Shown: positions 1-35,149 of the stretch, in pieces | Numbering within the stretch: position 1 is the stretch's first letter | How the letters are laid out: every line of letters begins with the position of its first letter | Source of the DNA: Haematococcus lacustris | Lineage: Eukaryota; Chlorophyta; Chlorophyceae; Chlamydomonadales; Haematococcaceae | Direction of reading: 5' to 3' | Length of the DNA stretch: 64,000 nt | Assembly (NCBI GenBank): GCA_030144725.1 | Contig: JASKMD010000001.1 | Span: 153,501-217,500, forward strand | Made by a program: the position numbers and the translations under genes | Notes under the pieces: model-generated | Seen by the model: only the letters and a program-made list of their open reading frames with translations | Told to the model about the DNA's origin: nothing | The model's database searches: none

Positions 1-3000
1 TTGTCTAGTGTGGTCAGGAAGCGGGTGGCTTCTGTGTATATTGGAGCCAGGTAAGCTGTCAGTTGAGCATGGAGCTGTGGGGCACCTGAACTGGGTTGTT
101 GCACGGCAAGGCGGTAGGCTTCCCTGTCGCTGTTGGTGATGGGGGTGGTGAGGATGGTGTGACTGTGCTTTTGGGGTTCGTGTGTGGCTGCTAGGTCTAT
201 GCCCAGTCTGGCAGTGGTAAGTGTGGCGGTAAGTGGTCTGTGGTCGCTGAGGTAAGCGTGCGTGCCGACGTGTGTGCGGTGTTCAGGGCCGTGTCTCGCG
301 TCCCGCGTCAGGATGGCATCGATGCGGCTGTTGCAGTGTGGTTGCTGGTAGGTCCAGTCCCGGTCGCCGGGGTCGGCTTCGGACAGGCGCAGCTGTGTGG
401 CGAACTCCCTTGTCATGTGGTCCTGGATGTATTCGGTGCGTTCGGGGCGGTCTTCTGTTTTCATCGTGGCGTTGATATCTCCCGCGAGGATGAGTGAGCC
501 GGGCAGGTGACCAGTGACAGTCCGTATGTGTTCCTGCATCTTCTTCCTTAGCGGGATCGCGTCGTCGTTGTTCCCCGAGGGCCAGTACGTGGCGACGATA
601 GTGAGCTCTTCACTCTGCCGTTGACGGAGGTTCAGGATGACACATCGTGTGTTAACATTCGCGTCTGTGCACGGCGGCAGCATGGTGGTTTGCATCTGGA
701 TAGCTAGGTCGTGTCTGATACCAATGAGAACTTCGCTGTGCCCTTCATGGCGGTGGACGATATAGTTGGGTATAACCCTCTTCAGCCAGCCAGAGCTAGG
801 GTTGTTGCTCTTGGGTTGGGTCATAGTCTCTGTGAGGATCAGGATGTCCGGGTTTTGTGTGTGCACCAGGTTTAGCACGTCGTTTCTGGATCTACATAGA
901 CCTCTGACATTGAGGGTTGTGAGGGTGATGTGTTGCCGGTTAAGGGTGGGTGGTGGTGGTGGGCTGTGTTGTAGGTTCGTGCCCAGGTCGTTGTCAGGCG
1001 TGGGTTTAGATGTCTCGGCTGTGGTGGAGACTGGCCCCGTGTTGTGGGCCTTAGCGGTGGGTTTGCAAAGATATTTGAACATGAGGGTTTGAGTGTGTGT
1101 GTCGTTACAGTGTCTCTTGGTGACTCGAACGCGCTTTTTGGCAGCGTCGGTGGCGTTGCCGAGGGGTGCAGTGGGTCGATGGGAACTTGGTGGACGGAGA
1201 GTGACCGTAGGTGTGTCCCTGCGCTGTCGCAGCCGGGTGGGCTCGTCGTGGTGAGGGATGCCCTCTGCTGTCGCCCTGCGCTTGCTGTCGGCTGTGTAGC
1301 TGGTCTCAGCGATAGTGGTGGTCGCGTGTAGGGGGGCGGTGGTCTCTCTTTCCACTGTGTGGTCTGTGGTCAGGTCTATCGGGTCCAAGTGATCTCGGAA
1401 GTGTGCTGCTAGGGCTGATGGGTTGGTGGTCTCCAGCGGGTCCGCTATCCAGATCTCCCTCCTAACGAATCTTGTGTGCCTTACGTCGCCCTTGCATATG
1501 GTGAGAATGTTCCCTTGGAGGCTGCCCCATTCCTCGGGTGTGGAGAGTGGTTTGGGCACCCGGTTGAAGGAGTCTAGCTGGTGCCAACCTTGCTCTGTGT
1601 GTTTGATAGCGGTTGCGTGTTGGTAGGATAACAGGATGACAGCATCGTTGTGTGTTGCGCCCGAGCTTGCTATAGCGGCAGTGACCACCTCAGGGGTGAT
1701 GCTCTGGGTGGGTAGGAAGGTTGAGGCTGGGTGCAGGTATGTGCGCATCTCGTGGTGTTTACGGTAAAGGTAGTGGTTTAGTGTGTCGGATGAGAACTTG
1801 CCTTTCTCATGGTAGATGTGGTCTGTTTTGAGGGCTCGGATCGTATACCCTGCTTCTCGTGCTTCTTCAGCCCGGTATTGCAAATTCTCTGCTAGCTGCT
1901 TGCAGTGGTTGATGACTGCGTGGTGGTCTATGGTCTTGTTTCCCATGGCCATGTTGAAGGCATGCACTAAGCAGCATTCTTCGTATTGCCTTTCCATGTA
2001 CGGGTGGACTGGGATACGGGCTGTGACTGTGGGGGGGGTGGGGTCGGCTGCTGTGGTGTTGCGATCGTGGTTGCTTGTGCTTTCTGCATGGCTGATGATG
2101 TGGTGGATGCCCTTTTCTGCGCACAGGCGGATCTGCTCACGTGAGCGGGTGGTGGGCGTGATGACGAAGAGTTGGTGCAATGTCCGCTTAGCAGTAGCAG
2201 GGATGCGCGGGAGGGGCGTTGGTGTACTTTTCATGGAGTCCAGTAGGTGCCATGTGCCATTTATGCATGTCAAAGCCATGCTATGACCTGGCCTTCTGCA
2301 CAACAGCGTGTGTGTGCCGTACTGTGCGGCTAAGTTCTCAAGTTTGTCCGTGGTCCAGTCGTTGGGTTCATTGAGTTGGGCAATGCTTTGCACTGCTAGG
2401 CCGTAGTGGGCATGCAAGTACATCTCGATGACTTCGTCCGAGTAGCCGTCAGCGCCCCTCGCCATCAGCCATGCGCCGCGTTCGGATTGATCCGTTATTT
2501 GTAGGAGCCTATTGTCATAGAAGTTGTCTATGTCTTGCATGGTAACCCATTCATGGCCTGCCGCGTTGTTCAGAGAGTAGGCCTGGCAAGTAGCGCTGTT
2601 AGCGGCCTGTTGAAAGTGGTGTCGAGTTGGACCTGGATTGGCTTCCACGTCCCCAGCAGCGAGCAGAAGCCAGGCTATGTAGGTAGCCCGGGCGACGAGA
2701 GTGGAGATGAGAGTGCTTGTTGTTTGGTCTTGCCTAGTGCATTTAGCTGCCGTCTGGTAGCAGTAGTAGACGTGGAGGGTGTTGTTGAATTGGTGGACCG
2801 TGTAGGGGTGGCTGTTGTTAGCTCCTTGGGTAGAGAGGTGGAATCTATTTGTCAGTTTGCAGAGGGAGCTAGAAGCGGCTAGGGTGCCATCCACCCCTGC
2901 CAGGACGTTGTACCCTATGACACGGACTGTGGCCCTCAAACGGCCTAGGAGTTTCCTATGTTTGTTGAGACAACGTTGGGAGTCCCTGGCCGTGGGCTTT

Positions 3001-6000
3001 TTGGTGTGGCTGAAGTTGGCTCGGGGTGCTGTGAGCATGAACGTGAAGGTGGCAGTGGCAGTAAGTATTAGTATGCTTGTAAGGCAAGTGGTCGTCCCTT
3101 TGAGGGTGGGGATAGTGGGTTGCCGGGTTGTGCCTGTTTTTCCATGTATGGTGTCCGCATGGTGGGGTGGGCCACTCTGTACATTACAGTGTTTGACGCT
3201 CAGGTGCAGGTCTGTTGGGATATGGTACCAGCCGTTACAGGTCTCCCTATGGGCCTGAGGTGCAATGATACGGGTGTGGGAGTCCTCAGCTTGTCTAGTC
3301 CCATGCCTGGCCGTCACTAAGCTGGGCTGGAGGGCTCTCATGTTGATGCTTGTGCTGCTCCTTCCTTGGGTGTGGTCGCTGTCAGCCAGAGCTGTGGAAG
3401 CTGTCCTAGCATACCCCCCACTATCTGCCTTACGTCTTGCTGGCGCCCTGCCCAATCTCCTGTTAGCATGAGCATGCTTGGTCCGCTGCTGCCCATTGGC
3501 GCTTCTCCATGTCCGGCCTGAGCCCATGCAGGCAGCAGTGGTGTGAGGTGCATAGGTGCAAGTGTGCAGGTCCGTGTCCGGTTGGGGGTTTGTGATGGGG
3601 TGGGGATGGGGTGTGTGTTCTATGCAGAGTCCCGTCATATTGGTGTGTGGTAGTGTAGGTGGTTGATGTGCTAGTGGTGCATCTAGTGGGGCAGCAGGTG
3701 GGCCAGTGCCCGTGACGGCAGTAAGGGCATCAGGTGGGGCACCAGGTGGAGCGGTAGGCGGTGCAGTAGGTGGGGCAGCGGGAAGGGGGGGCGGTGGGGC
3801 AGCATGTGGGGAGTAAGGTGGGGAAGCAGGTGGGGCAGTGTGTGGGGCCGGTGGGTGGGCAGTGCGGCTGGCAGCTGCATGGATCAGCGTAATGGTGGTG
3901 GGCCTAGCAACAGCTTGTGCGTGGGCATTGAGGCTGGCTGTGGCAGGCCAAGTGTGTGTGTTGGCAGTGGCTTGTGGGGCATTGCCGTAGTTCAGCGGCC
4001 CCATGGTACTTGCCTGCTCAGGGTTGTTGGTGTGCCTATGGTCCAGGCTTGGGGTTAGTCCTTGTCTGCAGGGGCAAGAACAGAGGGCGGGGGCTTGCAT
4101 CCCAGGCCTGGAGTATGGGTTAGGGACTGATTGAGAGTTAGGGTTGGAGGTTAGTGAGTGAGTGAGGCGGGGCCGTGTCGGCGCTTGGCCATAGCGCTGT
4201 GTCCCATTTTGAGTTGGGGTCTCTCTATTGCTCACCCAGGTGTGCCAAGGGGTCATAATCCTGGTCTTCACCGGAGCCAAGTCCCTCGTCGGCCTTGCGC
4301 TTTGTTGCCTGCGTGGTATGTGGACCATGGTGTGTTGTGAGCCAGGGTGGTGCCGTCGAGGGGCAGTAGTGACGTGATGGCTTTCTGGGGTGGATTGTTT
4401 GCGTTGGATACATTGTGTACGCGGTGTCAAATGTGCATCAATATCTTGCATGGTATATGTCATGGTATATGGCATGGCGTATGTCTTGCATGGCATATGG
4501 CATGGTGCACCGACCTTGTTGGCTTGCAGGGCGGCTGTGAAAGGGTTCACTGGAGCCTCCTCTGGGGAGGCTGGTGCCTGAGGTGGCGGGGCAGGCCGCT
4601 GTGAGCCTGTGGCCTGCAGTGGGCCTTTGCCCTTGTTGGTCCCGGCATGCGAGCCTACTGAGGCGTGGCTGCCGGCCTGTGGGATGAGGGAGGCTGTCAC
4701 TTGTTCAGCGCTGATGCTCTCCAAGCCGTCAAGCAGGTTCTCCAGGCTGTCCTCCTGCTCCTCTGCCGGCATGGCCTCCCGTAGGGGTTTGGCCCCTGCC
4801 CCCAGGTGTGCTGCAAAGGCCTCCACCGCGAGCACTGCCATGGACGCCCTGGCTGTGGTCTTGTCCAGGGGTGGCAGGCTGGTGAGAGTGGGCAGCGGTT
4901 TGCCAAGGGGGTTGAAGTCTGTGGAGAGGGAGGCAATGCCGGCTGCGATGAGGGTGTAGCTGGCTTGAGCAGCCGTGAGTGGGGGGGTGGGGTAATCCGG
5001 GCGTTTGCCCGCAGAGAGCCGCAGAGACATGGTGCCGACAGCAAGGGGCGGAGCGGTAGCTAGGCCCAGGGCGGTGAGGACCATGGAGTGGTTGTCACCC
5101 AGCAGGATCTGTGCCTGGCTGTGCCTGGCTACATGCTCGTCCCTCATCTGCTGTGGGGTGGAGAGGAAGAGCGGCCTGCCTGTGGCACTGCATGCCACGG
5201 CCAGTGGGTCTAGTTTGGCTTCCTGTAGGGGGACGCGCTTGCCTGTGATGTGCTGGAAGTGCACGCTCTGCACCATCCTGTCGACGGTGGTCGCGCATCC
5301 CACCCTGATCGCGTGCTGGCCTGCTGCCCTCAGGGCAGATCCTGATGCTCCCATGCTGCCGCTGCTGCTGCTGCTGCTGCTGTTTGCAGCTTCCATGGCC
5401 TTTCTGACTACTGACTCCAGTCCAATGCGCAGCTGTGCCTCGAAGGCTGTCAGGATAGCCATCATGGTGGCGGGTTGGGTCTTAAAGAGCGGGTCGCTGA
5501 AGCCGTCTACGTTGATCGAGTACGCCTGCGCTGTGGCCTTCGGTGGCAACACCCATAGAAGGGCGTGCCCGGTGCACTCGAAGCACACCGGAAGCGTTAG
5601 AGTGTGGTCTGGCTGTTTGGCGCATGCTTGCGCGACGGCTGGGCTGTTGCTAGTGATGCTGTAGATCTGCTTGCCCTTGTGCATGCATTGCACTGCCATG
5701 GATTCTGCTGATGCAGCTGCAGCGGCTGCCTTGGCCAGGTATCCGCCCCAGCTGTCCTGGCATTCCTGGTCTGGGTTGGGCTGGGTTGGTAGGGGAAGGG
5801 AGGGCAGCCCACCGACCTGTGCTTTGACCGCGTGTGCCCCCAGGATGTGGAGCAGGCTGGTTACCCTCTCCTCTAAGGGGGCTGTCGGCTCTGCTGGGAT
5901 GCCCAGAGCCTCCCACCCCTGCTCCGCAATGATGCTGACGCTGCCCTGGATGCTGTTGTTGTCCTGGGTCAGGCGGCTGTTAGCTCCCTGCACTATGCAG

Positions 6001-8669
6001 GTAGCTTTGCACCCATAGCTGAACCCCCCATTCTCCCAGCGGGTGAGAAAGTCTGCTCTGCTGCCTAGGGCCACCGCCTGCTGGAGCGCTGAGGCATGGC
6101 TGTGTCCTACCCTGGTGGTGCACACCAGGGCTAGGCTGAAGGCTTGAAGTGCTGTCCCAGACTCAGGCTGCACGGTGTACCGGCTGGGGAGGATCTCCTC
6201 CACCTGCAGGGCTGGAGCATGCACGGCTACCATCTCGAGGTACTGGGCTGTGACGCTGTCCACTGGGTTGTGCGGGGGGGTCTGTGGGAGGTAGGTCACC
6301 TCCCCCTTCTTGGCCTGCATGGCATGGGGAACCTCAATCATATTGTGACCCCTTTGCCTGGTCTCTATGTGTGTATGGCGCGGTGGTTGGTGCCTATCTT
6401 GCCGGCGGTCTGCTAGTGGGCACGTGGGTATAGGCCTGATGGTTAGTACCTGGAGGATGTGGCCACCAAGCTTGACCACTATGGGCGCGCCCGGGATGAG
6501 GCTGCTGTCGAGCCCGTTCGTGATGGGCGAGCAGGGCATCACCGGTGGCATCAGCGCCGGTTGCATCACGTCCAGCGTGGAGGGGCGGTCGGGCTGGTCC
6601 GCCGCCGCCGGGGCAGTGAACTTGTCAAACGCGAAGGGGTCGACGGCTGGAGCAGGGCCGATGGGCATCTGGATCTCTTGCATCCCAAGGCCCGGCTTTC
6701 CCACCAGAATCCGTGTCGCCGGGATAGTGCCTACAGGGATGTGTTGTTTCTTCATATCATAACTATCTTCCTCGAGTTCCTCCGTGCCTCCTAGGCGCCG
6801 CCTACCAGCGCTGCGGCTCGCCAAGATCTCGGCTTTGGCTTGTTTAGTGGCCTGCCACAGCTTTCGTGTGGCGTTTTTCTTGGCTGGTGGCACGTAAGCT
6901 ATCATACTCATGTTGGGAGTTCGTGTGTCAGGCTTGTCGCAGTGTGTGGCGCGGGCTCTAACAGTACCAAGCCTGTTAATTTTGAGAAGCACCATGTGTG
7001 TAGAATATTGAGAGTCACTTTCTTTTCCCTTGAAAGAGGCAGGGTCATCAGCATGCGCACGTAGGGGTGGGTCTTCCCCACAACTTTGTGGCGGCTGGCG
7101 GCTGGCGCTTCTATTGTCAGATTGCACCTCAGCGTTTCTGTGAGTGGTTTGCGTCTCTGTGTCGGGCGGTAGGTCATGCTTGGCTGCAGCGGGTAGGGTT
7201 GTTGGCTGGTGGTAGTGCTGGGTGGCATGTCTTATGTTAGTCTGCTCATCCCCATGTGAGGCCTTCATAGATATGACATGGGACTGTTTCTGCACGTCTA
7301 TAGCAGCCAAGATGGGGAGGTGGTTGTGTGGTTGTGTTGCCTGTCTCTTGTTAGCCTTCGCGTCAGCATCTGCGGTGTGTGTTGTCCTGGCTAGCAAGAG
7401 GTGGCCATGCAAAGGTGCATGTCTAGTGGCCGTCTGCGCCTCAGCATGTGTAACTAGCATAGTTGTGTCATGTGTCTGGGTATACCGGGCTGCAGCGGTT
7501 ATTGCTGACAGGTGATGGGAGTGTTGGAGTGCATGTCTATCAGCATGGGTAGCTAGCATGGCTCTGTCGTATGGCTGTTCATGCCAAGTAGCATCAGCTA
7601 AGAATGACAGGTGGTAGTGCGGCTGAGGTGCATGACTATTGGCTGCCTGCGCATCAGCATGTGTTGCTAGCTTGGCTGTGTCATAAGGCTGGTCGTGCCA
7701 GGTTGCCGCAGCTAGGGCTGGCTGGTGGTGGTGCAGCTGAGTAGCATGTCTATGTCCGGCCTGCACATCAGCATCCGCAGTTTGCATAGTAGAGTCAGAT
7801 GTCTTGTTGTGACGGTGTGCAATATTCATAGCTGGCAGGTAGTGGCAGTGCTGAGGTGCATGACTATTGGCTGCCTGCGCATTAGCGTGTGGCGCTAGCT
7901 TGGCTGTGTCATAAGGCTTGTCGTGCCAGGCTGCCGCCGCTAGGGCTGGCTGGTGGTGGTGCAGCTGAGTAGCATGTCTATGTGTGGCCTGCACATCAGC
8001 ATCCGCAGTTTGCATAGTAGAGTCAGATGTCTTGTTGTGACGGTGTGCAACATTCCTGGCTGGCAGGTAGTGGCAGTGCTGAGGTGCATGACTATTGGCT
8101 GCCTGCGCATTAGCATGTGTGGCTAGCTTGGCTGTGTCATAAGGCTTGTCGTGCCAGGCTGCCGCCGCTAGGGCTGGCTGGTGGTGGTGCAGCTGAGTAG
8201 CATGTCTATGTGTGGCCTGCACATCAGCATCCGCAGTTTGCATAGTAGAGTCAGATGTCTTGTTGTGACGATGTGCAACATTCCTGGCTGGCAGGTAGTG
8301 GCAGTGCTGAGGTGCATGACTATTGGCTGCCTGCGCATTAGCATGTGTGGCTAGCTTGGCTGTGTCATAAGGCTTGTCGTGCCAGGCTGCCGCCGCTAGG
8401 GCTGGCTGGTGGTGGTGCAGCTGAGTAGCATGTCTATGTGCGGCCTGCACATCAGCATCCGCAGTTTGCATAGTAGAATCAGATGTCTTGTTGTGACGGT
8501 GTGCAATATTCATAGCTGGCAGGTAGTGGCAGTGCTGAGGTGCATGACTATTGGCTGCCTGCGCATTAGCATGTGGCGCTAGCTTGGCTGTGTCATAAGG
8601 CTTGTCGTGCCAGGCTGCCGCCGCTAGGGCTGGCTGGTGGTGGTGCAGCTGAGTAGCATGTCTATGTGT
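1..8669 (-). CDS. Giant retroelement polyprotein, downstream part (partial, runs off the left edge)
   Basis: The minus-strand frame whose codons begin at positions equal to 2 modulo 3 has no stop from about 8,795 to position 1. I checked every line to about 7,860 and sampled the 228-bp repeats above it. In protein order it carries 76-residue repeats (8,665-7,220), an unassigned middle (about 7,200-4,000), a proline-rich stretch (about 3,900-3,680), a hydrophobic segment near 3,060, a 2A motif at 2,628-2,654, two Josephin-like cysteine-protease domains (about 2,600-1,560) and an EEP endonuclease (about 930-190). EEP followed by RT is the standard order in APE-type LINEs, so an RT is expected beyond the window. 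In-frame ATGs occur at 6,911, 6,905 and 6,755, but the same frame continues upstream of 10,127, so the likely start is 12,059. The whole may be one LINE ORF with an unusually large N-terminal half, or a LINE ORF joined to another gene. The open frame and domains are clear. The element family is inferred. Confidence 0.82.
190..930 (-). other. EEP (APE-type) endonuclease domain of the polyprotein
   Basis: Motifs of the endonuclease/exonuclease/phosphatase fold appear in the correct order. TTLNVRG is near 905-925, ILTETM has its catalytic Glu at 828-830, and VATYWPSGN is near 560-590. GDINA has Asp at 477-479 and Asn at 471-473, NSRIDAIL has Asp at 318-320, and LSDHRPL has Asp 243-245 and His 240-242. 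All catalytic positions of the family are present, so this domain looks active. In LINEs it nicks the target DNA and the freed 3' end primes reverse transcription. The approximately 80 codons left before the window edge look like an EEP-RT linker. Confidence 0.93.
1560..1985 (-). other. Josephin-like cysteine protease domain 2
   Basis: The nucleophile motif CLVHAFNMAMG starts at 1,971-1,973 and follows the pattern C-x5-N-x-A-x-G. A hydrophobic strand and the motif QHATAIKH place the catalytic His at 1,617-1,619, and GWHQLDSF places the acidic residue at 1,572-1,574. Cys to His is 118 residues and His to Asp is 15. Josephin-type deubiquitinases (peptidase C86) have a Cys followed by an LNN-like motif, a His about 105 residues later and an Asn 15 residues after the His. 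The fit is good, but OTU or another papain-fold family cannot be excluded by eye. This domain lies between domain 1 and the endonuclease. Confidence 0.68.
2236..2592 (-). other. Josephin-like cysteine protease domain 1
   Basis: The motif CQAYSLNNAAG starts with Cys at 2,586-2,588. The motif GHSMALTC has its His at 2,283-2,285, and TWHLLDSM has its Asp at 2,238-2,240. Cys to His is 101 residues and His to Asp is 15, the same last spacing as domain 2. C-x4-L-N-N is the hallmark of the Josephin nucleophile region. It begins about 14 residues after the 2A cleavage point, so the protease would sit near the N-terminus of the released downstream protein. Its likely role is peptide or ubiquitin cleavage, inferred from the fold only. 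Some algal LINEs (Dualen type) are known to carry an OTU-like protease, so a protease in a LINE has precedent. Confidence 0.7.
2628..2675 (-). promoter_or_regulatory. 2A ribosome-skipping motif
   Basis: The in-frame peptide AWLLLAAGDVEANPGP matches the 2A consensus D-[VI]-E-x-N-P-G-P, preceded by the usual leucine-rich upstream residues. The skip would fall between Gly (2,631-2,633) and Pro (2,628-2,630). 2A sequences are known in several non-LTR retrotransposons, where they separate the N-terminal protein from the replication part. Here it separates the repeat and proline-rich half from the protease-endonuclease half. Confidence 0.88.
3680..3905 (-). other. Proline/histidine-rich low-complexity segment of the polyprotein
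   Basis: In the polyprotein frame this stretch reads as degenerate Pro, His, Ala and Ser repeats such as APPASPPYSPHAAPPPP. The DNA is a degenerate GGTGGGGCAG-type repeat. It looks like a flexible linker upstream of the 2A motif. Confidence 0.6.
7220..8665 (-). repeat. 228-bp (76-aa) tandem coding repeat, left block
   Basis: The marker GTAGCATGTC recurs at 7,741, 7,969, 8,197, 8,425 and 8,653, exactly 228 bp apart. Each unit encodes a 76-residue repeat with landmarks HATQLHHHQPALAAAAWHD, KLATHADAQAANS, CHYLPAMNVAHRHN and TMQTADADVQA. Below about 7,640 two or three decayed copies remain (QPYDRAMLATHADRHA; TADADAKANKRQATQ). The unit length is a multiple of three, so the frame is kept. The repeat is rich in His, Ala and Gln and matches no family I know. 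Confidence 0.9.
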
Positions 8670-10126
8670 AGTAGTAGTTGTTACACTAAGGAGGTAGGGC
8701 TCGGGTGGATACAAGCCAACCTCCAAAGGTAAAAGACTAAGGAGAGAACAGAGAAAAAGGGAAAGAGAAGGGGAACTACCTAGGAGAGAAAGAACTCAGG
8801 AAGGGAAGGGGAAGGGAGCATAAGGGAGCGGGGGAGAGACCTCGAGAAGCGGAGAAGCCAGAGAAGCGGAGGAGCTAGGGTCGCAAAAGGTTGGAGGGCT
8901 AGAAAGGGCGCCAAAGCTAGGAGGGCCAGAGAGGAGAGGGGAGTGAAACACGTTATGAGGCAGAGGGACTAGGAGGAGTAACCGGGAAAGAGACACTAAG
9001 GGATCCGTCTCGAGTAGAGATGAAGGGATGGGGATGGGGGAGGTTCCAGCCAGGAGGGTTGGGATGGGCTAGGGTGAAGTCTTGTAGGTGAAGCCAAAAG
9101 GTAGAGATAGCAAGCTGGCTGGCTGTAGAAATGGGGGAAAGGGTGGTAGGAGCGGTCGCTTGAGTGGTGGGGTGATGGGTGAGAGCCCAGAGACGGCGAC
9201 GGCCAAAGTCCATCGCATCAAGGGCAGCCATGCAAACCAGGCTCCAGAGGGGAGGAGGGAAGGTAGGGGTGGGGGGGATGAGGCACCAGAGGGAGGATTG
9301 GTGAACTTGGGTGCCGAGGCTGAGGGAGAGCTGTTGTCTAATGGTAATGGCGATGGGGCAACTCCAGAAGCTATGTTGGCGGCTGTGACGGGGATGGTGA
9401 GAGGGGTCGCAAGGGCAAGACCAGGGAGTGATGCGGCTTCCAGGGATGGCATTGATGCTCAAGCGCCAAAGGGTCTCTTTAAGGAGGTTGGAACAAGGAA
9501 CCTTCCAGGCTTTGTTAAGGTTGGTAGTGAAAGCTTGAAGGGCTAGCGCTCGAGTGGTGGGTGGGTGAGGTGTGGATAGTGCTTGGGTGATGTAAGAGAG
9601 GTGGGCCTGCTTGCGGGCGGAGGTGATGTGGGGTGTGAGCATGGAGGTGAAGACCCTCACAGGGGTCCCTATGAGGGTGGGGAAGACCCGAGGGGTAGAG
9701 GTGGTGGGTGAGGACCAAGAGAGGGAGGTAAGGTGTTGGAGGGGGACTGGTGTAACTGGGAGGGGTTGGTTGGGAGAGGTAGCGGGAAGGGATAAAGGGC
9801 CGAGGGCTTGGAGGGCTTGGCAAATGAGGGTAATGATGCCTTGGGGGAGGAGGTGGGGTTGGTGGAGTGAAGGGAGCCCTATGATGCCTCGAGTAATGTC
9901 AGGGACGGTGGCTTGGGTAGAGAGAAGGAGGGTATGAGCAGGGTGGAGAGAGGGACAGGCGTGGGTGAGGAGGGTGGCTGCTAGGGGGATCCATGAAGGG
10001 GATGATGGAGAGGGAGTTGGGGGTGTTGGTGAAGGGGGGAGGGTGGAAGGCTGGGTAGGGTGGGAGGGGCTGTCCCGGGAGGGGCCAGGTGGTCGGCTGG
10101 AGGAGAGAAGGGGGGTGAGAAAGCCG
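8670..10126 (-). mobile_element. 5'-truncated LINE inserted in the 76-aa repeat array
   Basis: The inserted DNA is flanked by GTGT at 8,666-8,669 and 10,127-10,130. Removing it restores the repeat sequence ctatgtgtggcctg. On the minus strand it encodes a LINE C-terminal region. It is open from 9,660 to 8,953, with KETLWRLSINAIPG followed by a zinc-binding segment, PCDPSHHPRH then HSFWSCPIA, typical of algal L1-type elements. Upstream, 10,126-9,660 is proline-rich and broken into several frames. The 3' end (8,670-8,690) is a short ACT/AAC-rich tail rather than poly(A). The copy has no RT or endonuclease and is dead on arrival. Insert plus one target copy is 1,461 bp, a multiple of three, so host codons on both sides stay in register. 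Confidence 0.8.
8953..9660 (-). pseudogene. LINE C-terminal domain with zf-RVT-like motif (fragment)
   Basis: The open frame encodes VRVFTSML, an alpha-helical segment ending in KETLWRLSINAIPG, then a Cys/His cluster (CPCDP, then HSRQH, then FWSCP) and ALDAMDFGRRR. This is the region that follows the RT in many algal LINEs and probably binds nucleic acid. It lies inside the truncated LINE. The residues around the cluster deviate from the usual C-x2-C spacing, so binding may be lost. Confidence 0.6.
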
Positions 10127-11732
10127 GTGTGGCCTGCACATCAGCATCCGCAGTTTGCATAGTAGTGTCAGATGTCTTGTTGTGACGGTGTGCAACATTC
10201 CTGGCTGGCAGGTAGTGGCAGTGCTGAGGTGCATGACTATTGGCTGCCTGCGCATCAGCATGTGTAGCTAGCTTAGCTCTGGCATAAGGCTGGTCGTGCC
10301 AGGCTGCCGCAGCTAAGGCTGGCTGGTGGTGGTGCAGCTGAGTAGCATGTCTCTGTGCGGCCTGCACATCAGCATCCGCAGTTTGCATACTAGTGTCAGA
10401 TGTCTTGTTGTGACGGTGTGCAACATTCATGGCTGGCAGGTAGTGGCAGTGCTGAGGTGCATGACTATTGGCTGCCTGCGCATCAGCATGTGTAGCTAGT
10501 TTAGCTCTGTCATAAGGCTGGTCGTGCCAGGCTGCCGCAGCTAAGGCTGGCTGGTGGTGGTGCAGCTGAGTAGCATGTCTCTGTGCGGCCTGCACATCAG
10601 CATCCGCAGTTTGCATACTAGTGTCAGATGTCGTGTTGTGCCGGTGTGCAACATTCCTGGCTGGCAGGTAGTGGCAGTGCTGAGGTGCATGACTATTGGC
10701 TGCCTGCGTATCAGCATGTGTAGCTAGCTTGGCTGCGTCATAAGGCTGGTCGTGCCAGGCTGCCGCAGCTAAGGCTGGCAGGTGGTGGTGCGGCTGAGTA
10801 GCATGTCTCTGTGCGGCCTGCACATCAGCATCCGCAGTTTGCATAGTTGTGTTAGGTGTCTTATTGTGACGGTGTGCAACATTCATGGCTGGCAGGTAGT
10901 GGCAGTGCTGAGGTGCATGACTATTGGCTGCCTGCGCATCAGCATGTGTAGCTAGCTTGGCTGTGTCATAAGGCTGGTCGTGCCAGGCTGCCGCAGCTAA
11001 GGCTGGCAGGTGGTGGTGCGGCTGAGTAGCATGTCTCTGTGCGGCCTGCACATCAGCATCCGCAGTTTGCATAGTTGTGTTAGGTGTCTTGTTGTGACGG
11101 TGTGCAACATTCATGGCTGGCAGGTAGTGGCAGTGCTGGGGTGCATGACTATTGGCTGCCTGCGCATCAGCATGTGTAGCTAGCTTGGCTGTGTCATACG
11201 GCTGGTCGTGCCAGGCTGCCGCAGCTAGGGCTGGCAGGTGGTGGTGCAGCTGAGTAGCATGTCTATGTACGGCCTGCACATCAGCATCCGCAGTTTGCAT
11301 AGTAGTGTCAGATGTCTTGTTGTGCCGGTGTGCAACGTTCATGGATGGCAGGTAGTGGCAGTGCTGAGGTGCCTGACTATTGGCTGCCTGCGCATCAGCA
11401 TGTGTAGCTAGCTTGGCTCTGTCATAAGGCTGGTCGTGCCAGGCTGCCGCAGCTAGGGCTGGCAGGTGGTGGTGCAGCTGAGTAGCATGTCTATGTACGG
11501 CCTGCACATCAGCATCCGCAGTTTGCATAGTAGTGTCAGATGTCTTGTTGTGCCGGTGTGCAACGTTCATGGATGGCAGGTAGTGGCAGTGCTGAGGTGC
11601 CTGACTATTGGCTGCCTGCGCATCAGCATGTGTAGCTAGCTTGGCTCTGTCATAAGGCTGGTCGTGCCAGGCTGCCGCAGCTAGGGCTGGCAGGTGGTGG
11701 TGCAGCTGAGTAGCATGTCTCTGAGTAGATGT
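10127..11732 (-). repeat. 228-bp (76-aa) tandem coding repeat, right block
   Basis: The same marker occurs at 10,342, 10,570, 10,798 and on to 11,710, giving seven 228-bp units. These units share sub-variants, such as LPSMNVAHRHN in the first two and LPAMN or LPARN later, which suggests local unequal exchange or gene conversion. The block joins the left block in the same frame once the LINE between them is removed. Confidence 0.9.
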
Positions 11733-12059
11733 CTGGATGTTGGCACCACTCCACCTGTTCAACTCTTCTGTCGTTGGCGTCCGAGTGGTTTTTAGCACCG
11801 TCTGTTCCACGTCGTTGCATCTGTTGCAGACATCGCATCTGGGAAGCATTTTGAACCCATCTCCTTCCCGATTTGTGGCCAGCGAGTCAAAGGTGAACAT
11901 ACTCCAGGACCCACTGGTTGGACCCGCCGCGTTTGTATACTCAGACGATTGCAGCCGAAGGCCCGCAATCCCGTTAGCATAGCCGCATTGGACCAGTGGG
12001 GGAGCAGAGGTCCCCATCAGAAAATAGCACAGGCACAGGCAGGTAAGCAGGCGCGCCAT
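10127..12059 (-). CDS. Giant polyprotein, N-terminal part with hydrophobic leader and 76-residue repeats
   Basis: An ATG at 12,059 sits in a strong context (acaATGGCG, A at -3, G at +4, alanine second codon), typical of green algae. The first residues, MARLLTCLCLCYFLMG, form a short hydrophobic leader that could be a signal peptide or anchor. A unique stretch of about 100 residues with several cysteines (CDVCNRC near residue 65) follows. Seven copies of a His/Ala-rich 76-residue repeat then begin near 11,730. The frame is the same modulo 3 as the downstream part. It is interrupted at 10,126 by a LINE and ends there in unrelated codons at 9,981. Before the insertion it would have continued at 8,669. 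The next upstream in-frame stop is at 12,120-12,122, so no longer N-terminus is possible without an intron. The function of the leader is not known. Confidence 0.7.
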
Positions 12060-12335
12060 TGTCTTCGGCGTCCAGGTCCAAGGTCCAGGGTCCACGATGC
12101 GGTACTCGTTCGGCTCGTCTCAGCGTGCAGCTTCACGCGCTGTGCCCAAACGACCTCGTTGATGCGTCTGCGGTCAGAGAAAACAAAGCAAAAATTTGTT
12201 GGTGCAGTTATCCAACACCTCCCTACGATGTGACAAGGTAGCAACGACACAACACAACAAGAAGGTGACACCACACACCACCATCACCATCACCATCACT
12301 CAGGTTAAACATCCATCACCATCACCGTCACCACA
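12060..12335. other. Upstream flank of the giant gene, no gene seen
   Basis: This is the only candidate promoter region for the minus-strand polyprotein. It has no clear TATA box and no long frame. Short (CCATCA)n stretches begin at about 12,275. Confidence 0.4.
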
Positions 12336-13081: not shown

Positions 13082-13215
13082 TCTTTGCTAGCGCCACTTC
13101 TATACCTACCTGGCAGCGCCTCCATGGCTGCAGCTCCTGGCTGCTCCTGCGCTCCATGCACCTGCTTCTTGTGGTAGGGTGATGAAGGAGGTGGTGGTGG
13201 GGGAGGGAGGGGAGG

Positions 13216-13966
13216 GCTGGGCTGGGCTGGGCTGGGCTGGGCTGGGCTGGGCTGGGCTGGGCTGGGCTGGGCTGGGCTAGGCTGGGCTGGGCTGGGCTGG
13301 GCTGGGCTGGGCTGGGCTGGGCTGGGCTGGGCTGGGCTGGGCTGGGCTGGGCTGGGCTGGGCTGGGCTGGGCTGGGCTGGGCTGGGCTGGGCTGGGCTGG
13401 GCTGGGCTGGGCTGGGCTGGGCTGGGCTGGGCTGGGCTGGGCTGGGCTGGGCTGGGCTGGGCTGGGCTGGGCTGGGCTGGGCTGGGCTGGGCTGGGCTGG
13501 GCTGGGCTGGGCTGGGCTGGGCTGGGCTGGGCTGGGCTGGGCTGGGCTGGGCTGGGCTGGGCTGGGCTGGGCTGGGCTGGGCTGGGCTGGGCTGGGCTGG
13601 GCTGGGCTGGGCTGGGCTGGGCTGGGCTGGGCTGGGCTGGGCTGGGCTGGGCTGGGCTGGGCTGGGCTGGGCTGGGCTGGGCTGGGCTGGGCTGGGCTGG
13701 GCTGGGCTGGGCTGGGCTGGGCTGGGCTGGGCTGGGCTGGGCTGGGCTGGGCTGGGCTGGGCTGGGCTGGGCTGGGCTGGGCTGGGCTGGGCTGGGCTGG
13801 GCTGGGCTGGGCTGGGCTGGGCTGGGCTGGGCTGGGCTGGGCTGGGCTGGGCTGGGCTGGGCTGGGCTGGGCTGGGCTGGGCTGGGCTGGGCTGGGCTGG
13901 GCTGGGCTGGGCTGGGCTGGGCTGGGCTGGGCTGGGCTGGGCTGGGCTGGGCTGGGCTGGGCTGGG
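13216..13966. repeat. (GGGCT)n pentanucleotide satellite, about 150 copies
   Basis: About 750 bp of a perfect 5-bp unit with one visible variant (GGGCTAGGCT) near 13,276. On the minus strand it reads as Pro-Ala-Gln-Pro-Ser repeats without stops. It lies inside the exon-like interval between intron-like modules B and A. The array length should be treated as approximate, because such arrays often collapse or expand in assemblies. Confidence 0.95.
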
Positions 13967-17843: not shown

Positions 17844-18562
17844 ATGGCGACGCTGGTCCGTCCTGGGCCTGGTTCACCCCGCCGCCCTATCGCATCCTCG
17901 CAACAGGACCCTCACCCCCTCAGCAGGCAGGAAAAGGTGGATGCGGGTGACGTTGTGCTTGTCAAAACTGTGGTGGACTACTGCGTTCTTCACAAGCTCT
18001 CGCTGAACAAGAACTTCGCCACTAAGACCTGGGCCGACATCAGCGTCATCACGCGCAATGCCTGTGAAGTGAGAGGTCTGCTGGACTCCGAAGCCAAGCG
18101 CCAATTTAGCGAGGCTCAGTGCAAGACGCTGTGGCACAAGTTTACGCAGAGCTTCAGGCAAATCCATGCCTACATCAACAAGCACACCGGTAAGCACGAC
18201 AGCAGGCTTGGCAGTAACCCTGCTATCTGCCATAACTTCTTGTATGCCTAGCCAGAGGTTCCCTGTCACTTCTCACCCCTGCTGCTGCGGGTGGTGTGCA
18301 GGTGGTGGTCTCCCATTCTTTGAGCAAGATGATGAAACACGCAAGCAGCTGGCCAATCTTGGCGGCAAATGCAAGAACATGAAGCAGGAGGTGAGTGTTG
18401 GAAACCTAATGTTGATGTATATTTGATGATGTTGCTGATGTTGCTGCTGATGTTGACTTGCTTATGGTATCGCTGCTGCAGATGTATGACCTGATGGCTC
18501 CAGTCATGGCCAATGATTCAGCCACTGCACCCCTGTGCTTGGTGTCTGGCGGTGTCGACACG
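17844..18562 (+). CDS. Harbinger-associated Myb/SANT-like protein (3 exons, possibly incomplete)
   Basis: ATG at 17,844 has the context gcgATGGCG. Exon 1 (17,844-18,189) encodes a helical region with VDAGDVVLVKTVVDYCVLHK, TKTWADISVI and LWHKFTQSFRQIHAYINKHTG, resembling the trihelix/Myb-like proteins that accompany PIF/Harbinger transposases. Exon 2 (18,302-18,390) encodes GGLPFFEQDDETRKQLANLG, and exon 3 (18,482-18,562) encodes MYDLMAPVMANDS. Introns 18,190-18,301 and 18,391-18,481 have GT-AG ends and the phases join exactly. A further GT at 18,563 suggests another exon, but the next open stretch (18,654-18,884) is antisense to the transposase, so the 3' end is uncertain. The family's role is to help transposase nuclear import and binding to element ends. 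Confidence 0.62.
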
Positions 18563-19603
18563 GTACGCAGACTGCTAATGTAACATTGCATCTGCAACTT
18601 GTGGTCATATTGAGCAAATGTGTCCCCATGTGCTCTTGCGCTGCACTGCACAGGGAGTGTACAAGCGGGGCCGTGGACGTGTGGACTCTAGCGACACCCT
18701 TGTGATCACACACACAGTGCACATTAATGGAGTTGAAGCCCTTGTAGTTGTAAAACTCGTGACCTGTGCTCGGTGGGGCACGCATGATGGGGATCTGGAC
18801 GCCATCCATGGCAAGCGCCACTTGTGGCAGGCCCTGTTGTATGCCCCAACGCAACCGCACAAAATCAGAAAATCCTACCACTAGTTCTTGCCATTCCCCA
18901 TCCGTGCTGGGCATTGCCATGAAGTTGGAGAGCCGAGACCGGATGGCCCGACTCACGCCCTCCACACACCGGTGCACAGATGTGACGCTGCAACCCCAGT
19001 GCCCGCCCACCAACTGGAAGCTGCCACCTTTGGCAAAGTAGGAGAGGGCAATAGCAAACTGTTCCTCAGGTGGGAGGTAGTCTCGCCTCCGGCAATTGCG
19101 TTGCAGCCATGGGTGATCCCGGATGGACGTGAGCACAAAGTTGAAGGAGGCCCTGCAACATCACCATCGTCATGTTGTTGCACAGAGGTTGCGCATATAG
19201 GTAACAAACTATAGTACTTCCTTTGCTGGGCTGTGGAGCTGAGCTAGATGCTGGATTAGTGCTCACTTGGACACATGGAAGTAGTGCTGGTAGAGGTCGT
19301 CTCGGCAGTCGCGCACGAGGCGGTAGTATGCCTTGTAGTTTCGAGGGCGCTTCCAATAATGCGAGGACCTAAAGTACCTGTAGCAAGCAAGTTCAGTGTG
19401 GGTCGCTGGTCAGTGTGGGTCGATGGGTGTGCAAGGATTGCGAAGGCAACCCACCTTCGGCCACCCTGTCTGCGCTGAGCCGCGGCAGCTGCGCACACCA
19501 TAATGCCGCGGTGGAAGAGGATGCGCCGGTTGCTGCTGCCGCTGCTGACGCTGGACATGTCGTGTCCGCTGCTCGAAGAGCTGGTCGAAGAACCAGAGTC
19601 CAT
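18504..19603 (-). pseudogene. Harbinger (HARBI1-like) transposase, truncated
   Basis: Three exons join in frame. Exon 1 (19,603-19,455) starts MDSGSSTSSSSS and is serine-rich. Exon 2 (19,377-19,267) encodes HYWKRPRNYKAYYRLVRDC then DLYQHYFHVS. Exon 3 (19,152 on) encodes LTSIRDHPWLQRN, EEQFAIALSYFAKGGSFQLV, a helix-turn-helix (CSVTSVHRCVEGVSRAI) and the first catalytic block ALAMDGVQIPI then EFYNYKGFNSINVHCVCD. The frame stays open to 18,504, but the tail after VCDHKG no longer resembles the family. The second Asp and the Glu of the DDE triad are absent, and a full-length protein would be roughly 150-200 residues longer. The two introns have GT-AG ends (19,454-19,378 and 19,266-19,153). Confidence 0.8.
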
Positions 19604-28834: not shown

Positions 28835-29466
28835 TTATAACATCGCAGCAACATTGAGTTTTTCAATGTCAACAACGGCGATGAGTCGGCCTTTCCTGGG
28901 GCTATCTGCGGTATGCCTCCCGGGAGAAATGATGTGTGTGACTTCCGGCCTTAATCGGCGCGAGTGCTGCTGTTCGCTGCCTCCGCTGCCGCTGCCCAAC
29001 GGTGTACCCGCACCGACGTCCTCCCCCTCCTGTAATCTCCGCTTCTGCTGCCTGGTCGTCACCAGGATTTTGTCAGTATCAGTCTTAGCCGTCGCTGAAG
29101 TTACTGGGATACGTGACAGTGGATCGGCAGGATTAGTGTTGCCAGGTAGGTATTTAATGGTGTAATTAAATCGGGATAAGAACTCCAACCAGCGGCTCTG
29201 CCTACGGGACAGTGTAGACTGCGTAGGTAGGGCCTCTAGAGGGCGGTGATCAGTAAACAGGGTGAATGGCACTCCTTCAAGGTAGCACCGCCACTGTGTA
29301 CACGCAGCAATAATAGCCAAAGTTTCCTGTTCCCCAGTGGTATAATTCATTTCAGCTTTTGACAGCTTACGTGAATAGTATGCCAGGGGGTAACCAGCCT
29401 GTGTCAATACTGCGCCAACACCTAAGAGTGAGGCGTCACAGTAGACTTCAAAGGGCTTGGTTATAT
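28835..29466 (-). pseudogene. Ty3/gypsy RNase H fragment and end of pol
   Basis: The frame begins at the insertion edge with ITKPFEVYCDASLLGVGAVL, then LAYYSRKLSKAEMNYTTGEQE, FTLFTDHRPLEAL, YLPGNTNPADPLSR. The RNase H acidic residues (YCDAS, GEQE, FTDH, NPADPLS) are present. After about 28,990 the sequence is no longer recognisable and stops at 28,835. No integrase HHCC or DDE region follows, only satellite. Upstream, the RT half lies beyond an 822-bp insertion. Confidence 0.85.
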
Positions 29467-29857
29467 TTGAGGTATAGGGAAAAATATAGGCGTCAATATT
29501 TTTCCATAACTCGGGTCAGTTAACCAAGGCCGCAAAGTGCTAGCAGCCAGATCCGCGTGTTCCGCAAGTGTGGCGCAAGTCGCGAGTGTGCTAGTTGCAT
29601 GTATGGCTTGCACGTCGCAACTTGCAAGTCGCGAGTTATTCAAAAACAACTTCCTACCGCTACTGATGCAACCTCAACGTAGCCAATGCGACGCTACGCG
29701 ATAGCTTATCGAGCATATTGCCAGGCTGGCATGTCTACTTATAAGTGCCAGGCTGGCATGTTGACTAGAAGCTACGTCTTTCGTCGTTTTTCAGGTCGGA
29801 GTAAGCCGCTTAGGAGAGGGATGAGGTTATAGGCTAGTTGAGGCAGTCGATATGTGT

Positions 29858-29995
29858 CGACCGGCAACGCATAATGGTCGAGCGGCAAAGCATAATGGTC
29901 GAGCGGCAACGCATAATGGTCGAGCGGCAAAGTGCACTTTTTGATAATGGTCGAGCGGCAATTGATAATTGTCGAGCGGCAAAGTACGATTCTCG
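29858..29995. repeat. 20-bp repeat (CATAATGGTCGAGCGGCAA), about 6 copies
   Basis: Units of 19-32 bp inside the 822-bp insertion, with drift to TGATAATTGTCGAGCGGCAA. Confidence 0.8.
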
Positions 29996-30127
29996 CAATC
30001 AGTATCGGGAAGCGTTTATAGAGCGGCTATGTTAAGAAGGGTTGGTGAAAGCGTTGGTCAACGGGATGTACGGTGTTGGTCAACGGGGGAGGGGGGCGGT
30101 TACGGGATTGGGGAACCTCAAATATAC

Positions 30128-30284
30128 TAGATAACCGCCTTGACCTCGCGCACTATGCGAAATAATGGTCTCGTCCTCGGCTCTGCTACCATACATCCCT
30201 CGGCTGCGCCTCGGGATGTATGTCCGCGCCACCTCGGCCTCGGCCATTATTTTCGCATAATGCTCTCGGACCGCCAATTATCTA
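30128..30284. mobile_element. Foldback element P5 (157 bp)
   Basis: Ends TAGATAACCGCC and CCGCCAATTATCTA. Inner arms ATGCGAAATAATGG and CCATTATTTTCGCAT, centre ATACATCCCTCGGC and its inverse. It is the right end of the 822-bp insertion. Confidence 0.75.
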
Positions 30285-30288
30285 CTAC

Positions 30289-31876
30289 ATATCAGGCAAG
30301 CGGAGCATAGGCACCTGGATAATGGCCTGCTTTAGAGCATTGAAAGCATCTAACTGGGGTTTAGGCCATTGTGCCCAGTTGAATGTTTTGCCTTCAGGGC
30401 CAGTTAAATTTGTAAGTGGGACAGCAATGGAACTAAAATTACGCACAAATTTACGTACATAATTAGCCATGCCAAGGAATGACTGCAGAGCTGTCAAGTT
30501 CGTAGGAACAGGCCAGTCTTTGATTGCAGTCACCTTGCTGGGGTCTACAGCTACACCATCTTTAGAGATGATGTGCCCCAGGAAAGGTAGAGACTCTTTC
30601 ATAAACTCACATTTGGATAATTTAGCAAAATACTTATGTTGTCTTAGCAAACTGAATATTTCACGAAGGTGTGACAGGTGTTCCTGGATAGACTTGGACA
30701 TGATTAGAATGTCATCAAGATATACCAGAGCACACCGGTCAATCACCGTGGCAAATGCCTGGTTCATCGCCCGTTGAAACGTAGCGGGAGCATTGGTTAA
30801 ACCAAAGCATAACACTTTATACTGATAGTGTCCCATGGGCGTCCTAAACGCAGTTTTAGGAATATCCTCATCAGGTATTCTGATTTGATGATAGCCAGCC
30901 TGGAGATCCAGGGAAAAAAAAAAGTCATACCAGACAATTTATCAAATAAATCATCAATTCTGGGGAGAGGGTACTGATCACGTATAGTGAGCTTGTTAAG
31001 CTGGCGGTAGTCTACGCACATGCGTAGCTCCCCTGACTTCTTCTTTACAAAAAGAACTGGTGCTGCAAATGGGGAGGAGCTAGGCTCTATCAGCCCTTTG
31101 GACAACATGTCAGTAACCTGTTTCTTCACTTCTTCCTGCTCTGGCTGACTCATCCTATAACTGGGCCTGGCAGGAGGTTTAGCACCATCCTGCAGGGGTA
31201 TAGAGTGCCCTACATCACGTGCAGGAGGCAACCCAGTGATAGGCTCAAACACATCAGATAACTCCATAAGGAGGCTCCTTAACTGTGCCGCCTGCTCAGG
31301 GGGAACACCAGGTGGGTCTTGCAGGTTCTCATAAGAGACCAGTGCAACCACACCTATGCCTCCTTCTTTGAGCCACTTAGCAGCCGTTTTAGCAGACAGG
31401 GGGGTAGGTACCACCTCTGTGCCAGGCATCAGGAAATCAGAAGGAATAGCAAAAGCTTCTTTTACAGGTTTTACAGTTTGTAGAGACTCAACTGTACAGT
31501 TTACTGACCCCTTCTTGCTTACCGCTGAAGGCAGTAGGGTAGGCTGGCCCTTAGGGTTACGCAGGGTGAGGGACTTGTCGACATAGTCAAGCAAGGCCCC
31601 CTTGCCATCACGTCCAACCATGCCCAGCACATGTGCCTGTTGAGGCTGAGCCACAGAAGGGGCAGCAGTCTTACATGGCACGGTATTCAAAGCAGGACTA
31701 CACAGTCTTGCTGACAGGGCAGGCAGGGGCTCTACAGGGCAAGCAGGCAAAGAAGCTGTTGTTGAGTTGGCCTGAGGCACACTCACATCATCATCAGCTC
31801 CTACAACAGCAGCATCATGCAACAGTTGTTCAGATTGATCCACAGCACAGTCCTGGCTGGCTGGCTGGGCAACACC
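30289..31876 (-). pseudogene. Ty3/gypsy pol: RT (copy 1, frameshifted)
   Basis: The upstream frame (31,876-30,797) has [38 protein letters not shown] and [10 protein letters not shown], the RT N-terminal part. A 10-base A run at 30,914-30,923 breaks the frame. The next frame gives [31 protein letters not shown] and FLGHIISKDGV, with catalytic YLDD intact. Before RT I see [17 protein letters not shown] but no DSGA-type protease motif, so the aspartic protease is missing or too degraded to see. The region is preceded in the same frame by a single TAG at 31,877-31,879, after the zinc-knuckle segment. Confidence 0.9.
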
Positions 31877-32495
31877 CTAGCGGTTGGTAGCAATACGGGC
31901 CCGGCTGACGCCACGGCGCATGCCCTGATCCCTAGGCTTAGCAGCCTTAGGTGGGGGCTGGGGCTCTGGCTCCAGGTCTGACTCAGAAGCACCAGACTCA
32001 GAGGGAGGCTTGGACTTGGCTTGGCCAGGCTTCTTGGCACCCTCAGGTGGGTGAGGATACCCAGACCTGCGCCGGGCCTCAACAGCCGTGAAGTGGCGGA
32101 AAGGGCAGGGGTGGTTGGTCAGGTGGCCGGGATGGTTGCACTTGAAGCAATACTGCCCAGGCAACAGGGGTTTCTTGGACCACAGCTCATCATGTCTGGG
32201 CCTCTTGCCAGCACCACCAGAAACAGGGGGCTTAGAGCCACGCCTGCCGGGGTGGGCTTCCCCTCGACTGAGCCAGGTCCTTCATAACAGCGGGCTGCAA
32301 AGCAGAGCTGAGACCCCTGGTGAAAACCATGGCCAGCAGGGGCTGACACATGCTGTCATTTCCTGCAAACAGCAGGTTGTTGCGGAAATCAGTGATGTAC
32401 TGGCCCAGGAGCATTCCTGCAGACATCTTGATGGCACCATCAAGAAGCTTAGTACGGGCGACATTACAGTCGTCACGCAGGTCGTCTCCTGTGTA
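30756..32495. repeat. 1,740-bp tandem duplication in Ty3, copy 1
   Basis: Appears identical to 32,496-34,235, including the shared A-run frameshift and TAG. All frames I compared translate identically. Confidence 0.93.
31877..32240 (-). pseudogene. Ty3 Gag zinc-knuckle segment, copy 1
   Basis: Encodes LLPGQYCFKCNHPGHLTN then HPCPFRHFTAVEARRR. The knuckle spacing is C-x2-C-x4-H-x5-C, one residue longer than the usual C-x2-C-x4-H-x4-C. It ends with ARIATNR and TAG, then pol continues in the same frame. Confidence 0.8.
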
Positions 32496-32576
32496 TGCCT
32501 GGTTCATCGCCCGTTGAAACGTAGCGGGAGCATTGGTTAAACCAAAGCATAACACTTTATACTGATAGTGTCCCAT
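32232..32576 (-). pseudogene. Chimeric RT-Gag frame at the duplication junction
   Basis: The RT peptide FQRAMNQA is fused in frame to the Gag peptide [14 protein letters not shown] by the tandem duplication. It is a by-product of the rearrangement, not a functional gene. Confidence 0.85.
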
Positions 32577-33616
32577 GGGCGTCCTAAACGCAGTTTTAGG
32601 AATATCCTCATCAGGTATTCTGATTTGATGATAGCCAGCCTGGAGATCCAGGGAAAAAAAAAAGTCATACCAGACAATTTATCAAATAAATCATCAATTC
32701 TGGGGAGAGGGTACTGATCACGTATAGTGAGCTTGTTAAGCTGGCGGTAGTCTACGCACATGCGTAGCTCCCCTGACTTCTTCTTTACAAAAAGAACTGG
32801 TGCTGCAAATGGGGAGGAGCTAGGCTCTATCAGCCCTTTGGACAACATGTCAGTAACCTGTTTCTTCACTTCTTCCTGCTCTGGCTGACTCATCCTATAA
32901 CTGGGCCTGGCAGGAGGTTTAGCACCATCCTGCAGGGGTATAGAGTGCCCTACATCACGTGCAGGAGGCAACCCAGTGATAGGCTCAAACACATCAGATA
33001 ACTCCATAAGGAGGCTCCTTAACTGTGCCGCCTGCTCAGGGGGAACACCAGGTGGGTCTTGCAGGTTCTCATAAGAGACCAGTGCAACCACACCTATGCC
33101 TCCTTCTTTGAGCCACTTAGCAGCCGTTTTAGCAGACAGGGGGGTAGGTACCACCTCTGTGCCAGGCATCAGGAAATCAGAAGGAATAGCAAAAGCTTCT
33201 TTTACAGGTTTTACAGTTTGTAGAGACTCAACTGTACAGTTTACTGACCCCTTCTTGCTTACCGCTGAAGGCAGTAGGGTAGGCTGGCCCTTAGGGTTAC
33301 GCAGGGTGAGGGACTTGTCGACATAGTCAAGCAAGGCCCCCTTGCCATCACGTCCAACCATGCCCAGCACATGTGCCTGTTGAGGCTGAGCCACAGAAGG
33401 GGCAGCAGTCTTACATGGCACGGTATTCAAAGCAGGACTACACAGTCTTGCTGACAGGGCAGGCAGGGGCTCTACAGGGCAAGCAGGCAAAGAAGCTGTT
33501 GTTGAGTTGGCCTGAGGCACACTCACATCATCATCAGCTCCTACAACAGCAGCATCATGCAACAGTTGTTCAGATTGATCCACAGCACAGTCCTGGCTGG
33601 CTGGCTGGGCAACACC
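32577..33616 (-). pseudogene. Ty3/gypsy pol N-terminal part (copy 2, truncated by the duplication junction)
   Basis: Same protein as 31,876-30,797, with the same A-run break at 32,654-32,663. It lacks YLDD because the copy ends at the junction. Confidence 0.88.
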
Positions 33617-35042: not shown

Positions 35043-35149
35043 TTGTAACGGCGTAGCCGCTGCCTTTAATCTTACAGTGTGAGCGGCATGTCCACTTAGA
35101 AATGTCCAACGCAGTCTCTACTATCCACACTCTCGCACAGCAACTGAGC

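Follow-up and report, generated by a model that had tools for sequence, protein, structure and literature searches.

A giant polyprotein frame with a 2A motif and tandem Josephin-like domains in a probable Dualen/RandI-kind non-LTR retrotransposon of Haematococcus lacustris

The window is a 64,000 nt stretch (G000:C1:153501-217500) of the Haematococcus lacustris assembly, which has 307.9 Mb in 597 contigs. It carries at its left end, and continuing beyond it, what is most probably (probability about 0.8) a copy of a Dualen/RandI-kind non-LTR retrotransposon that is present in high copy number, has moved recently and consists almost wholly of one giant frame. The element is much larger than is usual for its class. 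On the best reading, the new features are a front half with a signal-peptide-like leader, 38-residue repeats and a 2A, together with tandem Josephin domains. Membership in Dualen/RandI is likely, with a non-LTR reverse transcriptase (RT) and a restriction-like endonuclease (RLE) that is recognized at the motif level. The H. lacustris genome has 47.3% repeats with complex tandem patterns, and the giant element is not named in the accessible part of the genome paper (PMC7617258).

The presence of a giant multi-domain retroelement polyprotein frame is confirmed. On the minus strand the frame has 2,931 open codons between position 8795 and the window edge, and the leader and repeat frame at 12119–9981 (-) has the identical phase. 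From the ATG at 12059 to the window edge there are ~3,530 codons when a secondary insert is subtracted, which agrees with the figure of at least ~3,500 codons in the initial annotation. The segment order proposed there, i.e., leader, repeats, middle, proline-rich linker, 2A, Josephin pair and EEP, also holds, and every named segment is stop-free in frame. There are no stops in the leader (4.2 expected), the proline-rich linker (7.7 expected), the middle (18.7 expected) or the EEP segment (8.9 expected). Expectations are from 200 first-order Markov simulations per segment; stop-free simulations number 0/200 for the linker, middle and EEP and 0.5% for the leader. To the left of the window the frame runs 1,240 more codons (L010) to a TAG at C1:149779, past which it is open until a TGA at C1:147394. 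The segment past the TAG aligns with copies C2 and C182 over their C-terminal 1,100 residues at 62% identity. From the ATG to the final TGA the window copy has 5,568 codons without the insert, with one in-frame TAG. A search for tRNAs found none.

The back half displays the order 2A, Josephin A, Josephin B, EEP, RT, a zinc-finger-like segment, RNase H and a C-terminal CCHC-RHN-RPD-E.K segment. The EEP/APE-type endonuclease at positions 237–932 (-) has the motifs LNVRG, ILTET, GDINAT and SDHRPL and matches PF03372 with 40.7 bits (cut-off 24.5), as the initial annotation had proposed. The RT, which had been presumed to lie beyond the edge, was found in the same frame on leftward extension, ~1 kb or less from the edge, with an RVT_1 score of 81.4 bits (cut-off 29.6) and a YADD motif. 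The RT of a relative, P0006, scores 87.6 bits against R2 in the PDB vs 58.7 bits against L1. PHD-like zinc-finger matches to the left of the window are below cut-off. RNase H is present at 59.4 and 69.2 bits (cut-off 25.8) in both of the two copies with a complete back half that were scanned, and the window copy aligns across this part at 62% identity. The C-terminal CCHC, RHN, RPD and E.K are invariant in 8/8 copies. This segment has no PDB match up to E 10; in Pfam, zf-RVT is below cut-off in 8/8 copies and PDDEXK_9 appears in 1/8 at E 0.1. At the motif level it is probably a second, restriction-like endonuclease.

The 2A motif GDVEANPGP is at positions 2628–2654 (-), at residue 2048, in frame as claimed. 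The pattern G-D-[VI]-E-x-N-P-G-P is kept in 10/10 copies and in 7/8 short loci. By its motif, the 2A would split the front half from the enzyme half by ribosome skipping. It is preceded by a pre-2A segment (2655–3518, -) with a conserved pre-2A domain and a moderately hydrophobic stretch, which reaches a hydropathy of 1.6 in 3/10 copies.

Two Josephin-like domains follow, A at 2060–2588 (-) and B at 1450–2003 (-), both with Cys, His and Asp kept. Josephin B alone scores 37.4 bits against a Pfam cut-off of 26, and Josephin A alone scores 17.9 bits, below the cut-off. The two are homologous to one another by hhalign (90.5%, E 1.4e-6, with the window row in the A set only), and the part of Josephin-2 that contains Cys, His and Asp can be aligned with Josephin B. 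In Josephin B all three catalytic residues are present in 9/9 rows. In Josephin A, Cys is present in 6/7, His in 7/7 and Asp in 8/8 rows with letters; the one row lacking Cys is from gene model P0005, in which repeats are joined to mid-domain. A structure model of the pair has a pLDDT of 75.5 and a pTM of 0.49, and Josephin proteins are the first 11 of its 12 PDB matches with E <= 0.001. The target TM is 0.38–0.57; the low query-normalised TM is due to two domains having been searched together. Profile, A-B homology and fold model thus agree on the tandem Josephin-like domains. The initial annotation spoke of two protease domains. This stands for the Josephin fold, but the Josephin family consists of deubiquitinases, and a role in cleaving the polyprotein is putative.

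Protein relatives of the 2A-Josephin-EEP part number 14, of which 12 are from H. lacustris and two from Bosea sp., the latter probably being algal sequence in a bacterial record. A profile search for wider relatives, with 8,000 candidates scored, returned only the known Haematococcus and Bosea proteins, and none of 76 pattern matches in viral contigs is a relative. L001, a 4,083 bp contig filed under a Mollicutes MAG and apparently from another alga, has tandem Josephins at 25% identity. It consists of one open frame (1,360 codons) whose start looks coding and whose linker has 0 stops (10.3 expected). Six-frame searches of L001 and of L002 show no 2A motif. The tandem Josephins of L001 without an NPG motif imply that the Josephin pair is older than this species, while the 2A need not be. 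Alga-like retroelement sequence is thus filed under both a Mollicutes MAG (L001) and Bosea sp. (P0007, P0016).

A comparison between copies was made with dN/dS over segments set as offsets from the 2A, in blocks at least 50% identical, with saturated cases dropped. Values are 0.07–0.20 for EEP, 0.05–0.11 for RT, 0.10–0.17 for the RNase H-RLE part and 0.17–0.30 for the pre-2A segment. The Josephins have values of 0.12–0.22, except for Josephin B between C2 and C157 (0.98, with a pS of 0.04). The spacer before EEP reaches 0.84 (C2-C89). The enzyme domains, the pre-2A region and the middle, by these and the substitution ratios below, are under purifying selection.

The middle (positions 4515–6998, -) is in the position of an ORF1 domain. 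It shows a pN/pS of 0.17 (p 6e-14) between the window and locus L030. There are 23 matches to it among 37 genomic candidates, with four near-kin loci, and divergent forms at 30–32% are found within giant frames, the longest with 5,825 codons. The hhalign probability between the middle and the front half of copy C175 is 99.4%, with a reversed control at 0.2%, and the homology of these two is firm. A single ORF1 domain common to all subfamilies is not supported, as the front halves of C182 and C147 give 0.3% by hhalign. These two copies have another ORF1-position domain (28% between them) and short repeats replacing the 38-residue arrays. Front halves, which are wholly different from one subfamily to another, are thus exchangeable. 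To the eye the start of L001 resembles the middle, but this likeness was rejected: 229/500 shuffles score as high and hhalign gives 0.1%. The predicted structure of the middle is uninformative (pLDDT 29.5).

The proline-rich linker (positions 3519–4514, -) is removed by splicing in the public gene models P0018 and P0019. Both models depart from the polyprotein frame behind LQANK, P0018 with a 73-nt exon in another frame, and the window has GT-AG sites that match these splices. If the linker held spliceosomal introns, a spliced mRNA would yield the front half apart from the back half, with the unspliced RNA as the template. Consistent with this, a codon-usage score trained on the Josephins and EEP has a signal in the middle and the pre-2A segment, but none in the linker, and the first part of the linker (intron 1 plus exon 2) is unconstrained, with a pN/pS of 1.0 between the window and L030 (5 synonymous, 14 nonsynonymous, p 0.78). 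However, the second part is constrained in the same comparison (pN/pS 0.39, 20 synonymous, 21 nonsynonymous, p 0.003) and the linker overall has a pN/pS of ~0.5 (p 0.009). The linker is also stop-free both in the window and in L001, in-frame proline-rich linkers are found ahead of the 2A in C89, C157 and C143, and copying would lose introns. Functional splicing of this kind is rather unlikely. By the pN/pS values, the middle looks translated, as does the greater part of the linker; with the linker kept open and partly constrained, the introns are probably annotation artefacts or minor splicing.

The leader (positions 11739–12059, -) has 107 codons and a signal-peptide-like hydrophobic start. 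Its hydropathy of 1.49 in the window copy, in a stop-free segment, fits the hydrophobic leader described earlier. The N-terminal peak is 1.71–2.12 in 8/8 copies with a readable start, and the back halves have at most one comparable peak each. At the insert-free C251 locus, the leader and the middle are in one 3,062-codon frame with the 2A intact. Behind the leader are two repeat arrays. Array 1 (10128–11720, -) has seven 76-aa units, the last without its final residues, and array 2 (7560–8666, -) has four full units and a partial fifth; these are followed by degenerate 38-aa repeats in frame (6999–7559, -). The initial annotation counted 12 or more 76-aa repeats. There are ten full 228-bp units over the two arrays, an eleventh without its last residues, a partial twelfth and then the degenerate units, but the basic unit is 38 residues, as each 76-aa unit consists of two related 38-aa halves.

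The leader and repeats could be noncoding, with the 114/228-bp units representing promoter-like 5' monomers, as in mouse L1, that are open by accident, translation then starting further in. The repeats do lack a codon-usage signal and the constraint on them is weak (pN/pS 0.51; degenerate units 0.79, p 0.38). The repeat classes differ between subfamilies, and because the unit length is divisible by 3, an array built from a unit without stops remains open. Against this, the leader with its ATG region is found at 42 other genomic places, where 100 or more of the 107 residues align at 87–94% identity (51 matches among 52 candidates), and five of these are in frames above 4,000 codons. The leader has a dN/dS of 0.46 (C2 vs C89), the degenerate repeats have 0 stops vs 7.8 expected, and an exact 38-codon period is the strongest lag in 7/8 repeat regions tested, in unlike subfamilies (several of the regions are close kin). 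A noncoding 5' end is quite unlikely. Translation of the repeats as protein appears likely but weakly supported.

The element is bounded by a target-site duplication. The sequence AGGGAGGTGTTG is at positions 12213–12224 (-), 105 nt ahead of the leader frame and just upstream of the leader ATG, with the 5' untranslated start of the element (12060–12212, -) between it and this first ATG. An exact 12 bp copy of AGGGAGGTGTTG is outside the window at G000:C1:147261-147272, directly behind a (TCT)n tail, where 0.004 chance 12-mers would be expected. The duplications enclose 18,440 bp, or 16,979 bp (about 17 kb) minus the insert. They bracket everything from the leader and repeats through the middle, linker, 2A and Josephins to EEP and RT, and show that these moved as one element. 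On genomic DNA the duplication encloses both the repeats and the EEP part, which are therefore not separate host genes, a possibility that the initial annotation had allowed for. A host gene consisting of leader, repeats and middle beside an unrelated 2A-LINE, which might be favored by the middle having only two public protein homologues (among the best 8,000 candidates scored), is highly improbable in that the duplication brackets everything, the leader is at over 40 loci and the middle is inside several giant frames; a separate host gene for the front half is ruled out in the main by the duplication.

The single element so defined has many copies. A genome-wide search with the Josephin profile (799 candidates) gave matches at 150/150 places scored. 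The open frame has 3,000 codons or more at 62 of these places and 4,000 or more at 22; the 22 include one frame with an internal TAG and one (C143) that is partly N-masked. Nine further copies were examined in 20-kb stretches, giving 10 copies with that of the window. Complete stop-terminated frames of 4,197–5,825 codons are present in 8/10 copies, C143 being masked by N. Seven of the 10, the window copy included, have 11–14 bp duplications adjoining the element ends and (TCT)n tails. No duplication is found near the ends of C2 and C157, and C143 is unreadable. By eye, the 3' ends common to the copies consist of a GCCGG...CCGG hairpin-like stretch and the (TCT)n tail. Copies C182 and C64 are 99.855% identical across 13,746 bp and their flanks do not align; this near-identity in unlike flanks points to recent movement. 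The synonymous distance between C2 and C157 is 0.04 in Josephin B, 0.41 in Josephin A and 0.39 in the RNase H-RLE part, and neighbouring domains of C2 vs C157 and C89 differ sharply in this distance. The elements look like mosaics from template switching or recombination. C157 has a second, partial tail.

The secondary insert is another repeat element of 1,461 nt (positions 8667–10127, -) with a duplication of 3–4 bp at most. Its length represents 487 codons, a multiple of three. Nothing supports its earlier description as a LINE, the Pfam matches going no further than E 0.32. Another copy of the insert surrounds C74, one of the copies of the giant element, with 95.5% identity along 1,068 bp and 92.3% along 414 bp.

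The closest known systems are the Dualen/RandI elements of Chlamydomonas, which Kojima and Fujiwara reportedly showed in 2005 to combine APE, RLE, RT, RNase H and a cysteine protease. The cysteine protease of Dualen/RandI is OTU-type. The Haematococcus element is similar in its green-alga host and in a single long frame that joins APE and an RLE-like segment with RT, RNase H and a cysteine protease, but tandem Josephins replace the OTU-type protease, and the 2A, the signal-peptide-like leader, the 38-residue repeats and frames of 4,200–5,800 codons are further differences. APE LINEs that bear a 2A are said to have been described by Odon in 2013. These share a 2A inside the LINE protein that divides the front from the enzyme part, but the present element adds RNase H, an RLE-like end, Josephins and a leader. 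The interpretation in the initial annotation is supported overall; part of the novelty it claimed is known, as the APE/RLE/RT/RNase H/cysteine protease set is reportedly already combined in Dualen/RandI. No description of a Josephin or deubiquitinase domain in a LINE is among the literature matches listed.

In the accessible part of PMC4640811, Dualen is stated to encode APE and RLE, Dualen/RandI to have RNase H, and the NeSL and Utopia LINEs to have a Ulp1-like protease. The latter are similar in having a ubiquitin-like-protein protease N-terminal to RT, but it is a single domain of another family, and no APE or 2A is named for them in that part. Burro giant Gypsy elements encode a single polyprotein of 4,873–5,140 aa, as given in the accessible part of PMC6431247. 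They are comparable as a single giant polyprotein in a retroelement, but are of the LTR class and have other domains. Sea-urchin N-terminal 2A signal sequences link a 2A to secretory targeting in one protein (PMC4981915, accessible part). There the 2A itself is the signal, whereas here leader and 2A are 1,400–2,900 residues apart.

A working order can be proposed. A single RNA of ~14–17 kb would be translated from an AUG near its 5' end, and the leader may direct the front half with its repeats to the secretory pathway or a membrane. Ribosome skipping at the 2A would release the back half as a separate cytosolic enzyme, and the Josephin pair may trim this back half or deubiquitinate proteins of the element. 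Target DNA would then be cut by EEP/APE and the putative restriction-like nuclease at the C-terminus, and RT would copy the RNA from the 3' hairpin and (TCT)n end. Removal of the RNA by RNase H would leave the 11–14 bp target duplications that are observed with the tails.

The front half could be a secreted or membrane-held repeat protein, i.e., an envelope- or adhesin-like LINE product that the 2A separates from a nuclear copying enzyme in one ribosome pass. The putative parts are the signal peptide, surface-type 38-residue repeats, a proline-rich stalk and the pre-2A hydrophobic stretch. Membrane anchoring is the weakest of these, because so few copies reach the hydropathy of 1.6 given above. 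This proposal is speculative and unlikely; if true, it points to cell-to-cell passage or host-surface remodelling by a non-LTR element.

The retrotransposon reading is of significance in that a non-LTR element matches giant LTR polyproteins in size, with a frame of 4,000–5,800 codons intact in many copies. Host-protein-like modules (Josephin pair, leader, repeats) are joined to a probable dual-endonuclease core. The element explains many Haematococcus 'hypothetical proteins' and algal DNA filed under bacteria. With its near-identical copies, the element allows direct tests in an alga of mobility, skipping at the 2A, Josephin activity and where the front half goes.

Elsewhere in the window, positions 35200–62000 (+) represent a tandem array of a different LINE-type ORF (RVT_1 66–67 bits) with a period of ~3,295 bp and a GC content near 0.70 vs ~0.56 around it. 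Gypsy-type remains with RT and RNase H domains are at 28835–35117 (-), with a CCHC-bearing frame seen by eye; within them, 32537–33616 and 30797–31876 have an identical 359-aa translation. Matches to DDE_Tnp_4/HTH_Tnp_4 at 18504–19160 (-) are below cut-off and possibly represent a Harbinger-like transposase remnant. At positions 13214–13966 the pentamer GGGCT is repeated ~150 times at 99%.
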